DNA from: Candidatus Gastranaerophilales bacterium
Lineage (GTDB): Bacteria > Cyanobacteriota > Vampirovibrionia > Gastranaerophilales > Gastranaerophilaceae
Length of the DNA: 40,084 bases
NCBI GenBank assembly: GCA_016282705.1
Contig: JAEELO010000121.1
Span: 68,189-108,272 of the forward strand
Direction of reading: 5' to 3'
Shown: one piece after another, positions 18,065 through 24,940 of the stretch
Layout of the letters: each line of letters begins with the position of its first letter
Numbering within the stretch: the stretch's first letter is position 1
Position numbers and translations under genes: made by a program
Notes under the pieces: model-generated
What the model saw: only the letters and a program-made list of their open reading frames with translations
The model's database searches: none
Told to the model about the DNA's origin: nothing

Positions 18065-18223
18065 AATCCCCCCACTATTATTGTTTCGCTATATATAATT
18101 TACCATAAAAAAAAAACTATACAAATCTTTCTTACAAGTTTGTAATATTTTATAAAGTAAAAGCATTAATTATTTAAGTTTTTTTCATTTAGACCGACTA
18201 TAAATTTATTGGAATGTAAGTAT

Positions 18224-21200
18224 ATGGATTTTAATGAAATCAACAAAATAAACATTGATAAGACTTCTATTGATAAAAGCAATAAAAAAAAGTCTAAAAA
18301 TGTTGTGCCTGAAATTAAACAGCAGGAGATAGAAGAGAATTCTCCTATTAATCCTTCGTATTGGCAGAATACTGTTGGTATAAAAAAACAGCTTTCTTTT
18401 AAAGGTATAAATTTCAATAACATACCGGCAATATCTGATGAACCTGTTGATGAAGCATTTCTTAGTGAAATGCTTGATATTCTTAAAAATAAAATCAATA
18501 ATGATAATTCCGAAGAAATAAATGAATGTATTGAGAACGCAAAAAAAATATCCGAACATGGGAAAAGGGCATTAAAAAATTATGTGGATATTGTATCCGG
18601 CGCATTTAAAAATCATTATCCTGCAGGAAGAATAATCGAAATGACAAATATGATTTTTGATAAAATTCCTAAATTCTCGATTGATTGTACAGAACCGCTA
18701 AAAAAGTTTTTTAATGAAATAAATTGCACAGACAACGAAGGTTATGAATTAGTAAAAGATTGTATTAGTGCCGTTCTTTCAGATAATTCCAATGATGACA
18801 ATAAAATGGCTTGGATTTCTTTTCACATGCCTATCGACTACAAAGCATACGAAGAAACAGCAGCTTTAGTTACGGATTATTTAAATAATTATTCGGCTTA
18901 TTCGAAATTTATAAGTCATTTTAATTTTGGATTTATGCAAGATGCTGTTTCTCAAATGAATTTAAGCAAAAACAGAATGCAGGATTTAAGTTTTTTAATG
19001 GATAATAATGAGCTGGAACCGAAAACTTTATACAACTTTGCTCACACTAATAAATATTATAGGGAAAAGGAATGGGGGAATTCATTTGCATTAAAAAAAT
19101 ATGCAAATGACATTGTAGATATGATTTGTGATGATAAAGAAAAACTTGAATTATTTAAAGAACTTGTACATATTTATCCGGAACGATTATGCTTTAAGTC
19201 GACGGATATGATAAAACCTTTAAAATGTAATTCATATGCATGCAGACAACTAATTGATGATTTAAAAAAACGTCCTGATAATCCTTCAAACGGAATAAGT
19301 TTTATTTTATTGTCCTCTATAATTGACGAAAATAATATAAATAATTTTATGGAAAAAACAAAAGGATTGAGTGAACGTGAAGCATATGATTATGCAAAAA
19401 ACTACATTAATCCGAAGACAAAAAAATTTGATATTAAATTAGCCGATTATGCTGATTATTTAAAATCTATTTTTAAAATGCAGTCATACTATGCTGATAC
19501 AATATCTAAAGAATGCGTAGATATTGACACAGGCGAAATTAGCCCAATAGCAGACGATTTTTTCCACTTTGTAAAACGTGATGAAAAAAACATTAAAAAT
19601 ACATTGATGAAATCAGGCTTTATTATGACAAAACAACTGTCAATGCTTCATCAAATAGAAACAAACAATGATAGAAGCATATTAGTTCAAATTGTTAACA
19701 GCCTTAAAAATAATGAAGGGCATTTTGAAGAAAAGAATTTAGAATATTTGAAAAAAATAATATTCCTGCCTTTTAAATCCGGTTCAACATACAAAAATTA
19801 CAAAGCATTACCTGATATTATGGAAACAATAAAAGATGAAAATGGAATTGTGGACATAAATAAGTATTTAAACTTCAAAAAAATTGCAGGAGAACTTAAT
19901 AGTTTATATTCAGCTTGCAAAATGCATCAAATATTGTCAAAATATTCGCCTGAAAAAGCCAATGAAATTTATTCTACAATATTAAATATGAAAATTAATA
20001 AAAAACAAACCGGAAATATAGAGCCTGATATTATAAACTTTATATACGATAAAGAGGGCAATAAAAATAATAAAAGAATTCTTTTTGTCCAAGAAATATT
20101 GTCTAAACACAATATATACGGATTATCGGAAAGCTTTTTTGAAATGTGCGGAGAATCTGATGACAATATGGAATTTGTAAAAGAAATTTCTAAGAATATT
20201 CCCTCTTCATCGAGTTTGTTTATTACGCCATTAACTTTTATATACAATGAATTTAAAGATGAAAATAACAAATTTCCGCAATTTGTTAAAGAGAATATTA
20301 TAGAATGTACAAAAAAGAATATTTCTATTTCATATTTTGCACCGTTGTATAATGCTTGTATGAAAAAAGACGAGAATACTCAAGAACTTCATTTTGATAA
20401 AGATTTATTTGATAAAACAATTAATTTTATGAGCATTGTACAAAACAAAACCAGAAATCTCGGTAATTTATCACCGGAAACATATATAGGAATAATTACA
20501 AACACTTTGGATATATCAAAATTAAAATTCAGAGATAAAATCCATGCACTAAATGCAATTATTTCAGTAGATAAATACAATACTGAAAACGGAATAAAAG
20601 GATATGAATTTTTGTCTAAAATGATAACCGACCTTAATGACAGTATTTCCGTAACAAAAGAATACATGCCGGTAAAAGACGAATACAGAACTGATTTTAT
20701 AAGAAATATTCTTTTTTCAACGAATAAAAAAGAACTTACACCATTTGAAAAAATCATGACAGAATCAATTCCCGAATTGGAAAAAATGATAACAGGATTA
20801 AAAATTAAATATTCAAGACAAAATTTGTTAAATGATTTGTCAAAAATTTGCAATGAAAACCCTTCTGCAATAGAGATTATTCAAAAGAAAGCAGGTATAG
20901 AACTTATTTTTGATGGCAATATAACAGGTTATAACGGACTTATAAGTCTTAATGAATTTAATAAAGATGATAAAACAGAAAAACAAATATATGATTGTTT
21001 ATATAAATTCTTATATGAAAATGAAGTCCGGACAGGAAACAAAGAACTTGATATAGAGTTAAACAGAGTCATTAAAGCTTTTCCTGAATTTATAAATACA
21101 ATAGGGAAGAAACAGCATCCTACTCACAAATATTCTCTTGATATACATCAACTTTTAGTATTGGCATATTCTATGAATAATCCTGATTATTTAAATAATC

Positions 21201-22393
21201 TAAATGCTCATGATAAAGCTGTATTAAAGCTTTCTACATTATTCCATGATGTTATGAAACAAGAAAATGTTATAGACAACGGACATCAATATCCTTCTTC
21301 AATGTATGCAAGAAGTATATTACAAAAAGTTGTTAATAATCCGGAAAACACAGACAGAATATATGAAATGATTAATAACCATCATTGGCTCGCTTCATAT
21401 GCAAATTCCAATGATAAAAAAGAGATGGCAAAAGAACTTGCTTTTAGATTCAGACGACCTAATGATTTTGAAATCGCTAAAATTATGGCAGATTCTGATT
21501 TAAAAGGTGTAAGTGAAGAATTTTACAGCAAACATAAACAAGCTTTGGAAGATAGTAGTATAGATAATATTTCGGATAATCTGGATATAATATACTCAAA
21601 TGGTAATGCTTTATTTACAGATTATTTTGTTATGCCTTCAAAACTTGCCAATCATATTGAAATAAAAGACGGTAAAGAATACAAAGTTGTAAATTTCCAT
21701 AATATAAAACCACAAGAAGAATTAAGCAAATATGGATTTGACAGCGGAACAAAAAAAGAAGATGCCGTTTTACTTGTTCACATGGTCGATGAAAATAAAT
21801 TATATGAGAGTTTGAATACCGTAAAAATCTTAACTTCACCAATTAATGGCGGCGTATTATCAGAATCAATAATTACTCCTGAACATAACAGAACATACTG
21901 TAACAGAAAATACGGACTGCTTCTGTCTCATATCAATACGAATATAATTAATGAACATAAACATAACCAAGGCTCCGGCAGAGAAAAAGATATTAGTAAT
22001 ATAATGTCGCTTATATATGATTATTCACAAATTAGACAAAATTTTAGAAATGAACTTTTACGAGCTTTAAGCATAAACCCTAAAGATATAGATGATTATG
22101 AATATGCGGATTTTTATGAGAATGTTCTGGCATCTAAAACCTCCTTAAACCAAATTAATCCTGAAACAATATATAATTTGGGGGATTATTCCTTTACGGG
22201 AAAAGAATTAGTCAAAGCAATAAAATATTATCAGGATTCGTTGATTGATAAAAAAGGTACAGAACACAATGAAATTGTGGGTTATATCCCCAAAATTCAA
22301 GGTGTAATAGCAAAAGAGAAATCGCTTTCTCACATTCCAAATGAATTGTTAAATTTTGCACAAGAGAATAATTTACCGATTATATTAATTTAA
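18224..22393 (+). CDS. Giant SFKG-motif protein with a C-terminal GlnD-like HD domain
   Basis: A 1389-residue protein of no named family. The first 55 residues are polar and disordered-looking (Asn/Lys/Ser/Glu), ending in LSFKG at residues 57-61. The middle (about 80-930) is long, helical and Leu/Lys/Asn-rich, with no clear membrane segment. Near 965-1100 is an HD phosphohydrolase-type domain: HKYSLDIH, LFHDVMK (H1008-D1009), NGHQY, NNHHW and an AD.D-type aspartate in IMADSDLKG. The order and the YS(V/L)D.H wording resemble the uridylyl-removing HD domain of GlnD. I chose ATG 18224 (GGAA 9 nt upstream) over a TTG at 18209. There is no signal peptide. The role is unknown; a nucleotide- or phosphoester-acting effector is inference. 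Confidence 0.82.
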   Translation: MDFNEINKINIDKTSIDKSNKKKSKNVVPEIKQQEIEENSPINPSYWQNTVGIKKQLSFKGINFNNIPAISDEPVDEAFLSEMLDILKNKINNDNSEEINECIENAKKISEHGKRALKNYVDIVSGAFKNHYPAGRIIEMTNMIFDKIPKFSIDCTEPLKKFFNEINCTDNEGYELVKDCISAVLSDNSNDDNKMAWISFHMPIDYKAYEETAALVTDYLNNYSAYSKFISHFNFGFMQDAVSQMNLSKNRMQDLSFLMDNNELEPKTLYNFAHTNKYYREKEWGNSFALKKYANDIVDMICDDKEKLELFKELVHIYPERLCFKSTDMIKPLKCNSYACRQLIDDLKKRPDNPSNGISFILLSSIIDENNINNFMEKTKGLSEREAYDYAKNYINPKTKKFDIKLADYADYLKSIFKMQSYYADTISKECVDIDTGEISPIADDFFHFVKRDEKNIKNTLMKSGFIMTKQLSMLHQIETNNDRSILVQIVNSLKNNEGHFEEKNLEYLKKIIFLPFKSGSTYKNYKALPDIMETIKDENGIVDINKYLNFKKIAGELNSLYSACKMHQILSKYSPEKANEIYSTILNMKINKKQTGNIEPDIINFIYDKEGNKNNKRILFVQEILSKHNIYGLSESFFEMCGESDDNMEFVKEISKNIPSSSSLFITPLTFIYNEFKDENNKFPQFVKENIIECTKKNISISYFAPLYNACMKKDENTQELHFDKDLFDKTINFMSIVQNKTRNLGNLSPETYIGIITNTLDISKLKFRDKIHALNAIISVDKYNTENGIKGYEFLSKMITDLNDSISVTKEYMPVKDEYRTDFIRNILFSTNKKELTPFEKIMTESIPELEKMITGLKIKYSRQNLLNDLSKICNENPSAIEIIQKKAGIELIFDGNITGYNGLISLNEFNKDDKTEKQIYDCLYKFLYENEVRTGNKELDIELNRVIKAFPEFINTIGKKQHPTHKYSLDIHQLLVLAYSMNNPDYLNNLNAHDKAVLKLSTLFHDVMKQENVIDNGHQYPSSMYARSILQKVVNNPENTDRIYEMINNHHWLASYANSNDKKEMAKELAFRFRRPNDFEIAKIMADSDLKGVSEEFYSKHKQALEDSSIDNISDNLDIIYSNGNALFTDYFVMPSKLANHIEIKDGKEYKVVNFHNIKPQEELSKYGFDSGTKKEDAVLLVHMVDENKLYESLNTVKILTSPINGGVLSESIITPEHNRTYCNRKYGLLLSHINTNIINEHKHNQGSGREKDISNIMSLIYDYSQIRQNFRNELLRALSINPKDIDDYEYADFYENVLASKTSLNQINPETIYNLGDYSFTGKELVKAIKYYQDSLIDKKGTEHNEIVGYIPKIQGVIAKEKSLSHIPNELLNFAQENNLPIILI

Positions 22394-22501: not shown

Positions 22502-24682
22502 ATGCAAGGTTCTATGTCAGAACTTAATAATGAAATAAGTGATTTTGTTTCCGGTAAATGGCAAACAGAAATTAATGTCAGAGACTTTATACAAAGAAAT
22601 TATACACCTTATACAGGTAATGCTGATTTTTTAACAGAACCCACTCAAAATACCCTCAAGTTGTGGGATGAATGCTTAGAGCTTTTTAAAAAAGAACGTG
22701 AAAATGGCGGTGTTCTTGATATGGATACAAAAATTGTATCTACCGTAAGTTCTCACGATGCAGGTTATATTGATAAAGCACTTGAAAAAATTGTAGGTTT
22801 ACAAACAGATAAACCGTTAAAACGTTCAATGCAGCCTTTTGGCGGAATAAGAATGGCGGAAGGCGCTTGCAATTCGTACGGATATGAAGTTGATAAAGAT
22901 GTTGCTAGGATATTTAAGAAATACAGAAAAACTCATAATCAAGGGGTTTTTGATGTTTATACGCCTGAAATGAAGAAAGCAAGACATGCTGCAATATTAA
23001 CAGGTTTACCGGATGCATACGGCAGAGGTCGTATAATTGGTGATTACAGAAGGATTGCCTTATACGGTATAGATAGACTCATAGAAGATAAAGTTGAGCA
23101 GCATTCTTCACTTGACGGAGAAATGAGACCTGAGAAAATACAACTGAAAGAAGAAATTGCAGAACAAATTCGAGCATTAAAAGAACTGAAAGAAATGGCT
23201 ATGAAATACGAATGTGATATTTCTAAGCCTGCTAAAACAGCACAGGAAGCTGTTCAATGGCTCTATTTCGGATACTTAGCTGCAGTAAAAGAACAAAACG
23301 GTGCAGCAATGAGTATAGGAAGAACATCAACCTTCTTAGATATATTTATAGAACGTGATTTAAAAAGAGGAATTATTACCGAGCAGGAAGCCCAAGAACT
23401 AATTGACCATTTTATTATGAAATTAAGATTGGTAAAATTTGCAAGAACTCCAGAATATAATGCTCTGTTTTCAGGCGATCCGACTTGGGTAACCGAATCA
23501 ATCGGCGGAATGGGAATTGACGGCAGACCGCTTGTTACTAAAAATTCTTTCAGATATCTTCATACTCTTGAAAATCTCGGGACAGCACCTGAACCAAATA
23601 TGACTGTTTTATGGTCTACTAAACTTCCGAGAGGATTTAAAGAATATTGCGCAAGAATTTCAATAAAAACATCATCAGTTCAATATGAAAATGATGATAT
23701 GATGAGAGTAATACACGGTGATGACTATGCTATTGCTTGCTGTGTATCATCAATGGTTATAGGAAAAGAAATGCAATTTTTCGGCGCAAGAGCAAATCTG
23801 GCGAAATGTCTCTTATATGCAATAAACGGAGGTGTCGACGAAAGATTAAAAGAACAAGTCGGCCCTAAATATCGACCCATAACCTCTGAATATCTTGATT
23901 ATGATGAAGTTATGGAAAGATATGATGATATGATGGAATGGCTTGCAGGCTTATATGTAAATACATTAAATGTTATTCACTATATGCATGATAAGTATTG
24001 CTATGAAAAAGTTCAAATGGCTCTACACGATAGGGATGTAAAAAGGTATTTCGCAACAGGTATCGCAGGACTTTCCGTTGTTGCCGATTCACTCTCTGCT
24101 ATAAAATATGCAAAAGTAAAAACAATTAGAGATGAAAACGGTATAGTTGTTGATTACGATATAGAAGGTGATTTCCCGAAATACGGCAACAATGATGACA
24201 GAGTTGACCAAATTGCGGTTAATCTTGTCCACTCATTTATGAATAAAATAAGAAAACACTATACATACAGAGGCTCAATCCCAACAATGTCAATTTTGAC
24301 AATTACATCTAATGTTGTATATGGCAAGAAAACCGGAAATACGCCTGACGGCAGAAAAGAAGGTGTTCCGTTAGCGCCGGGGGCTAATCCTATGCATGGC
24401 CGTGATAAAAACGGCGCCGTTGCTTCATTGTCTTCAGTTGCGAAATTGCCATTTAGCGATGCACAAGACGGAATTTCTAATACATTTTCTATTATCCCTA
24501 ATGCCCTCGGAAAAGATGAAGTATTTATAGGCGATTTGGCTATAAATCTTGACTGCGGATGCTGTGAAGGCAACAGTGATACATATTTTTCTAAGGAATC
24601 TCGTATAAATCCTGTATCTTCACCTATTGAAAAAACAAAATATATTACTTCTCCAAAGAAAGAAGAAGTTACAAAAGTTTAA
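22502..24682 (+). CDS. pflB: Pyruvate formate-lyase catalytic core lacking the glycyl-radical domain
   Basis: Converts pyruvate and CoA to acetyl-CoA and formate. The body follows E. coli PFL closely: [16 protein letters not shown]-type start, [10 protein letters not shown], and the catalytic cysteine pair in IACCVSSM (C413-C414 here; C418-C419 in E. coli), then [19 protein letters not shown]. After [16 protein letters not shown], where ordinary PFL runs on into its glycyl-radical domain, this protein instead has about 50 unrelated residues with LDCGCCEGN and a Lys-rich end, then stops. The missing domain is encoded by the next gene. ATG 22502 has GGAG 8 nt upstream; ATG 22514, which begins MSEL as in E. 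coli, is an equally good start. No activase gene is in the window. Confidence 0.93.
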
Positions 24683-24700
24683 TATAAAAAAGGAAATAAT

Positions 24701-24940
24701 ATGACATCAATGCAAGAAGAAAATCTAATAAATTTGTTAGACGGATATGTTGAAAAAGGCGGTCATCACTTAAATGTTAATGTTTTTAATCGCGAAACGC
24801 TTCTGGATGCACAAAAACATCCTGAAAAATATCCGCAACTAACCGTTCGCGTATCAGGGTATGCTGTTAATTTTATAAAATTAACAAAAGAGCAACAAGA
24901 TGATGTTATTTCAAGGACATTTCATTCAAAATTAGGTTAA
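24701..24940 (+). CDS. Glycyl-radical subunit of a split pyruvate formate-lyase
   Basis: The 79 residues are the missing C-terminal domain of [21 protein letters not shown], then [15 protein letters not shown] with the radical-carrying glycine at G53, then LTKEQQ and SRTFH. The sequence closely follows the C-terminus of clostridial PFL from memory. It resembles the E. coli repair protein GrcA, but here the catalytic protein has no such domain of its own, so this must be an essential subunit rather than a spare part. It is translated separately: the PFL stop at 24682 is followed by AAGGAAA and a new ATG at 24701, so it is not a simple frameshift. Its TAA overlaps the stop of the convergent aroQ gene. 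Confidence 0.93.

Follow-up and report, generated by a model that had tools for sequence, protein, structure and literature searches.

The window analysed here is the whole stretch of 40,084 nucleotides at positions 68,189 to 108,272 of one contig (G000:C31:68189-108272) in the draft genome of a Candidatus Gastranaerophilales bacterium (2.2 Mb, 124 contigs), a bin with an estimated completeness of 91% and contamination of 7.6%. It carries two adjacent genes related to pyruvate formate-lyase (PFL), the enzyme by which many fermenting bacteria convert pyruvate to formate and acetyl-CoA and which oxygen destroys at its radical glycine. The pair comprises the following features:

22502-24682, + strand: PFL catalytic core (PflB without the radical domain), 726 aa, ATG at 22502, stop TAA at 24680-24682
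23738-23743, + strand: codons TGCTGT of the catalytic Cys413-Cys414, equivalent to E. coli C418/C419 in a pairwise alignment to PflB
24515-24679, + strand: C-terminal tail of the core in place of the radical domain, with a hook, DCGCC (24551-24565) and a long extension
24690-24694 (about), + strand: Shine-Dalgarno sequence AAGGA of the small gene, within the 18-nt intergenic gap
24701-24940, + strand: glycyl-radical subunit of GrcA3 type, 79 aa plus stop, ATG start
24857-24859, + strand: codon GGG of the radical glycine G53, equivalent to E. coli G734 by alignment, in the motif RVSGYAV

The core is identical to E. coli K-12 PflB at 468 of 712 aligned residues (66%) and scores 743.6 bits with PF02901 and 1130.8 bits with TIGR01255 (cut-off 994.2), the latter match spanning model positions 4-668 of 744. 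Because the core alone passes this PFL cut-off, the split is hidden by standard annotation. As the first-pass annotation had read from the letters alone, the catalytic protein possesses the Cys-Cys pair (C413-C414) and stops without the radical glycine: the chain ends, after ...NALGK, in a tail of 55 residues instead of the radical domain, and the RVSGY glycine that is absent from it is carried on the separate chain of 79 aa. That the second gene encodes the missing C-terminal domain was likewise borne out, since its product aligns to E. coli PflB 681-757 (1cm5, E = 1.1e-24) and presents the glycine at position 53. The small protein reaches 163.1 bits with NF038360 (GrcA3), above the cut-off of 158, and 84.1 bits with PF01228, while its score with TIGR04365 (GrcA), 96.3 bits, lies below the cut-off of 170. 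The core chain contains the complete barrel as well as the Cys pair, and the small chain comprises the C-terminal helix, strand beta10, the loop of the glycyl radical and the final helix (about 681-757 in E. coli). Judged by these alignments, core and small chain together would make up one PFL, with the cut immediately N-terminal to the helix ahead of the last barrel strand. An AlphaFold model of the pair joined by read-through superimposes on 2pfl with TM scores of 0.80/0.86; the read-through models reach a pLDDT of 69, a moderate confidence, and both leave the tail disordered.

Upstream of the core lies an ORF of 1394 aa (window 18209-22393) that yielded no Pfam match when tested from 18239; a stretch near 'LFHDVMKQ' in it looks HD-like by eye. 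With Rfam at the gathering threshold, the window gave a single tRNA and six clostridial loci gave no match; scanning the window pair and locus L139 for promoters and terminators yielded nothing usable.

Within the window's genome, PF02901 has one match, the split core, and PF01228 has three, namely the core end, the small gene and a weak third one which we take to be the class III ribonucleotide reductase. Searches with these two profiles found no other, full-length (fused) PFL in the bin, at 91% completeness, the presence of which had been named beforehand as the observation that would speak against a two-chain enzyme, and the PF01228 search found no orphan copy of the radical subunit. Two activases of the PflA type are encoded on contigs other than that of the window, scoring 309.1 and 299.4 bits with TIGR02493 (cut-off 231.75):

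G000:C97:86684-87379: PflA-type activase (TIGR02493)
G000:C37:424-1116: PflA-type activase (TIGR02493)

The genome thus counts two activases for one PFL, a tally that may include contamination (7.6% of the bin).

A search of related genomes for split PFLs, suggested with the first-pass annotation, was carried out with the PF01228 profile in 58 genomes including the window's own and gave a match in 36; 33 strong-match loci, the window among them, were inspected, the remaining three genomes having weak matches only. PFL is split in 31 of the 33 loci and fused in two (G013, G045). Among the 31 split loci the gap between core and small gene varies from 4 to 145 nt, and the small ORF is out of frame with the core in 23 and in frame in 8. 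All 31, again including the window, have a Shine-Dalgarno-like 4-mer 3-12 nt 5' of the small ORF, against a background of 557 out of 6647 ATGs (8.4%) in the same stretches. The median dN/dS of the small gene is 0.03 (387 usable of 465 pairs), and it is hence under strong purifying selection as a separate gene.

These observations bear on two explanations that would do without a genuine two-gene arrangement. The pair could be a pseudogene or frameshift, a formerly fused pflB interrupted by a stop codon, and in the window itself the two ORFs do lie in the same reading frame, separated by a single TAA and 18 nt. However, the split is common to 31 of 33 related loci and to 77 of the best 80 loci listed from other taxa, one split pair lies in a complete chromosome (Claveliimonas bilis, L096), gaps and frames differ from locus to locus, the Shine-Dalgarno-like element is present throughout, the dN/dS is low and the core has a tail motif of its own. 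Interrupted pflB was rejected on the conservation of the split across taxa and retains next to no probability. Much the same holds for a programmed read-through of the stop codon that would give both a one-chain and a two-chain enzyme: the 8 in-frame loci would permit it, but read-through is excluded for the split by the 23 that are out of frame, and, outside the window's family, 37 of 81 loci have an extra gene with the pair, usually between both, so that this explanation is scarcely credible either. The earlier reading had argued from the small gene's own Shine-Dalgarno sequence that it is a real gene and not a frameshift; the gene is real, as AAGGA, its counterparts in the relatives and the selection on it attest, but as the two ORFs of the window share a frame, read-through had to be excluded separately. 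A sequencing error joining the two frames, the other observation that was to speak against the pair, is ruled out by the conserved split and the varied gaps and frames. Since varied gaps and frames, the Shine-Dalgarno-like elements and the low dN/dS cannot be explained by a sequencing slip, decay or read-through, the split in the window is confirmed, with assembly error, frameshift and read-through excluded.

In the phylum of the window's bacterium, which includes oxygenic phototrophs, 52 of 194 genomes have a PFL above cut-off; 29 of these are fused and cover the whole model, 23 are cores without the radical domain that reach only to model position about 663-669, and no genome has both. All 23 split-type genomes belong to the window's family. 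In the 22 inspected, the genes are split by a stop codon and each core tail holds at least two Cys; the core of the 23rd (G128) adjoins the end of a contig. PsaA/PsaB were found in 4 of 4 same-phylum genomes tested and not in the window's genome, G140 and G141; the Gastranaerophilales are a non-photosynthetic group.

The two-gene PFL is no unique design of the window's bacterium, as pairs of a core and a GrcA3-type gene also occur in Bacillota and Actinomycetota. PFL is split in Collinsella aerofaciens, where RefSeq names the pair pflB and grcA3, and also in the best tblastn plasmid match, Subdoligranulum variabile. A scan for the small subunit in 84,980 species genomes gave 576 relatives, of which the best 80, a sample biased to split types, comprise 77 split loci, one fused locus (L121) and two cut by contig ends. 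An even draw of 79 genomes from the class of Claveliimonas bilis contained 37 with an above-cut-off PFL, and only the centre of the draw (G410) and G480 were split among them, which makes split PFL the minority type in that class. The 18 genomes behind the named loci divide into 16 with a split PFL only, one with both a split and a fused PFL (G410) and one with a fused PFL only (G423). Of 60 clostridial loci that measure 9 kb or more, 43 contain, close to the pair, a PflA-like ORF recognised by motif; in the 12 clostridial loci viewed it is immediately 3' of the radical subunit. Two records labelled Bacteriophage sp., MT838895 and MT838692 (L076, L075), carry pfl genes as well; they are probably bacterial DNA and not phage.

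A quick IQ-TREE phylogeny with SH-aLRT support, without bootstrap and rooted at the midpoint, was computed for 87 cores, to which 147 distinct cores (37 fused, 33 + 77 split) had been thinned by identity. It excludes cores of less than 560 residues up to LGK (e.g. L058, L063, L094) and L152, which has no motif; from L106, L112, L129, L156, L161, L163, L194 and L205 the extraction pattern retrieved no core. All 55 split rows fall, together with two fused rows (L121, L075), into one clade (support 99) whose sister is the fused PFL of Enterococcus gallinarum. The split cores of the window's family form a clade of their own (support 100), and the fused PFLs of its family and order (8 rows, support 99) stand apart from them. 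The topology fits a split that arose once, near Bacillota, was passed to the window's family by transfer and was reversed twice by re-fusion. The two fused rows inside the split clade, L121 from Lachnospiraceae SIG300 and L075 from an unverified fecal scaffold, are probable natural re-fusions; in L121, core and radical domain are still separated by a Cys-rich stretch (LFVNDTPDVTCGCEEVTC).

What replaces the radical domain at the end of the core follows a pattern. A short hook of the type DEVFMGDL follows LGK, by a loose pattern, in 30 of 35 cores of the window's family and in 74 of 78 elsewhere. The tail of the window's core carries NLDCGCC and is predicted to be disordered (pLDDT about 30). 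In the window's family all 35 core tails examined, a set overlapping the 22 mentioned above, have at least two Cys; outside it the same is true of 42 of 78, while 36 of 78 have no Cys, and a universal Cys tail of split cores was rejected on this count. The Cys-free cores are followed by a long gap to the radical subunit, and this gap contains an extra ORF, referred to below as the middle gene. A terminator, which had been considered for the long clostridial gaps, was found in 0 of 35 of them, versus 0 of 175 shuffles; they hold the middle gene instead. It was located at:

L120, 5696-5929: middle gene
L124, 3684-3890: middle gene
L139, 5746-5973: middle gene
34 further loci: middle gene

Of these 37 genes, 34 were recognised by pattern and three (L117, L141, L077) were added by eye.

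The 81 split loci that do not belong to the window's family comprise 42 with the Cys tail only, 37 with the middle gene only, two with neither (Collinsella L160 and the MAG locus L156) and none with both. With the family's 35 included, 114 of the 116 split loci tabulated possess exactly one Cys element, located in the core tail in 77 and in the middle protein in 37. Fisher's test for the mutual exclusion in the 81 loci gives p = 5e-21 with kinship ignored. On a tree of 77 of these loci the two traits change 8 and 7 times, and over 5 independent well-supported pairs they change in opposite directions in 3.9 on average and in the same direction never (p = 0.125, with L077 scored as neither). Two further samples agree with the pattern. 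An even draw of 291 genomes from the class of G414 held 9 with a near-full-length match to the middle protein, and in all 8 of those inspected, six of them new and two (G414, G480) already among the 81, the radical subunit adjoins and the core tail is free of Cys. In 23 chosen genomes a full-length match was found in 7, three of which had supplied rows to the middle-protein model, and all 7 have a Cys-free core tail; none of the 16 others had a match. Taken at the level of gene content, the exclusion of tail and middle gene appears to expose an undescribed third component of split PFL.

The middle protein itself is unnamed, has 60-85 aa and is encoded as a rule between PFL core and radical subunit, although in L212 the gene stands 3' of the radical subunit instead. 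That of Lacrimispora amygdalina (L120) has 78 aa, QIDDIVSMLDSFMANNGGHMNIRV ... SLDCAEGDTACRVPTLFEGMD. Its dN/dS lies between 0.06 and 0.23 in 25 pairs (more than 60% identical, dS < 2.5, only ORFs with a Shine-Dalgarno-like 4-mer). Three examples gave no Pfam or NCBIfam family above cut-off, one had no match in PHROG, and a profile of 15 middle proteins found no PDB chain at E < 0.1. The GrcA3 model matches the L120 protein at 2.9e-5 over residues 5-36, one of two others at 0.018 and the second not at all. Compared directly, the profiles of middle protein and radical subunit align with E = 6.8e-8 over 30 columns, by which the first half of the middle protein is related to the helix and beta10 strand of the radical subunit. 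The RVSGY loop is absent, and in its place stands a Cys motif of the form [ST]x[DE]C-x(3-6)-[AP]C-xx-P[TN], similar to other cores' Cys tails, the string PTLFEGLD included. The middle protein can therefore be read as a putative twin of the radical subunit that lacks the glycine and whose Cys end may alternatively be part of the core. Radical subunits of the window's family show additions of their own at the C-terminus: those of L215, L221, L183, L185 and L232 end in a Cys-rich tail (...SCGC or ...NCGC), and those of L225 and L230 have long extensions.

That the window pair forms a two-chain PFL, as the first-pass annotation had proposed, is well supported by the conserved split in the relatives and by the genome, in which no full-length PFL was found, and we regard it as very probable that the two-chain enzyme is obligate. 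The small chain would dock into the core as last barrel strand and loop, a PflA activase would place the radical on G53, from where it would move to C414, and pyruvate and CoA would then be converted to acetyl-CoA and formate. Oxygen would cut the small chain only, so that this chain could be exchanged and the large core kept. The Cys element might help to seat, recognise or guard the empty docking site, and its job would be that of residues 696-733 of E. coli PFL under repair by YfiD.

For E. coli, one study reports that oxygen-cleaved PFL (1-733) binds YfiD with a KD of 14 uM and becomes activated, that binding of YfiD to a shorter form, tPFL (1-695), is too weak to measure, and that complexes of tPFL with YfiD have wild-type activity once activated (PMC8683613). 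Residues 696-733 are called a recognition element there because the 1-695 form binds poorly and yet is fully active once activated (PMC8683613). In cells, according to a second study, PflB G734A together with GrcA yields intermediate formate, and without GrcA none (PMC12338860). As truncated PFL with YfiD is fully active and G734A with GrcA makes formate, a two-chain PFL should, by analogy, be catalytically sound. Given the weak binding of tPFL to YfiD, a split core must have gained its affinity otherwise, and by the same analogy hook and Cys element on the core side likely replace the missing recognition element. Going further, split PFL may be pictured as a three-part machine of core, exchangeable radical subunit and a Cys element provided in cis (as the tail) or in trans (as the mini-protein), with the mini-protein acting as a displaceable placeholder; this picture is put forward tentatively, as a possibility that we would not ourselves expect to hold in full. 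The mini-protein would keep the docking helix and a beta10-like strand, followed by the Cys motif, would fill or mark the empty site of the radical subunit and shield the catalytic thiols, and would be displaced by a fresh radical subunit. It would in this way be a built-in counterpart of the element by which cleaved E. coli PFL (cPFL) recognises YfiD.

Whether the separation of the radical domain amounts to a built-in repair design, as was first proposed, can be weighed on the small genes that lie elsewhere. Five of the 23 split genomes (G128, G129, G133, G138, G141) have an extra small gene away from the core, and six such orphan loci were inspected (L176-L181, from G141, G138, G133, G129, G128 and G161). 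The orphan radical-subunit gene is divergent from the gene of a Crp-type regulator (PF00027 + PF13545) in 5 of the 6 loci and directly 3' of a rubredoxin gene in 3 of the 6. By raw count, a palindrome, TGTTGT-N4-ACAACA, lies near the orphan genes in 4 of the 6 (L176, L177, L178, L180). The orphan protein of L178 is identical to the core-side copy in L184. Orphans placed beside a Crp-type regulator and rubredoxin suit, but do not prove, an exchange after oxygen damage, and by analogy with E. coli an oxygen-repair design of split PFL is plausible. The same orphans could be claimed for a different reading, by which the small gene is an ordinary spare of the GrcA/YfiD kind, kept for stress, and the core a permanently shortened enzyme that is self-sufficient or inactive; the NCBI family name, autonomous glycyl radical cofactor GrcA3, points the same way. 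A spare presupposes a full-length PFL, however, and searches found none in the genome of the window, nor in the remaining 22 split genomes of the phylum or in 16 of the 18 named genomes, while the core has no glycine of its own and the small protein, besides its sub-threshold GrcA score, is without the 60-residue N-terminal part of YfiD, all of which renders this reading improbable. A considerably stronger contender, to which we would give somewhat less than an even chance, accepts the split but sees its purpose in dosage or activation, by easier access of PflA to the radical loop, and not in repair. The radical loop of PFL leaves the barrel for activation, many of the named carriers come, going by the titles of their records, from gut or rumen samples, where oxygen is scarce, and the window's genome shows no orphan spare; against this, the orphan genes of the relatives, with their rubredoxin and Crp-type regulator, point to oxygen.

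If the obligate two-chain reading holds, the split PFL is a natural enzyme in which the vulnerable part is always a separate chain of 9 kDa, so that the spare-part idea can be tested directly and no mutants are needed. It would also explain why genes for an 'autonomous cofactor' adjoin pflB in genomes with nothing to rescue. The small family as such is already known, being annotated by NCBI as GrcA3 'autonomous glycyl radical cofactor'. A full-text literature search, thin on subscription papers and bioRxiv, found no account of an obligate two-chain or two-gene PFL. As far as the sequences tell, the new element is the core Cys tail and the unnamed middle gene as mutually exclusive parts of split PFL.

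In comparison with known systems, the window core shares its Cys pair and, over 712 residues, most of its sequence with PflB (TIGR01255; E. coli 2pfl/1cm5), which is encoded by one gene, whereas the PFL of the window is encoded by two, with a core that ends in a hook and a Cys-rich tail. GrcA/YfiD (TIGR04365, 6owr) is likewise a glycyl-radical domain encoded on its own, and it combines with a PFL that is without this domain. YfiD, however, serves as back-up for a full-length PFL that oxygen has cleaved, and its N-terminal part is a disordered stretch of 60 residues (PMC8683613), while searches of the window's genome found no full-length PFL and the small chain there has a helix before beta10 instead. 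The name of GrcA3 (NF038360), to which the small protein belongs by score, implies a rescue cofactor, whereas the genome data presented here would favour an obligate subunit. Two PDB entries named 'Formate acetyltransferase', 38lb and 38la (739 and 687 residues), compared by chain sequence alone, match the PFL core and not the radical subunit; in 38lb, LGKSGNVMFGECDMCEM is followed by a tail of its own, and among four core queries the Olsenella split core gives the best score with it (1324 bits). 4-Hydroxyphenylacetate decarboxylase and benzylsuccinate synthase are likewise glycyl radical enzymes of several chains, some with small Cys-rich subunits. In contrast to the PFL of the window, these enzymes bear the radical glycine on the catalytic chain, as their large/alpha chains match the radical domain.
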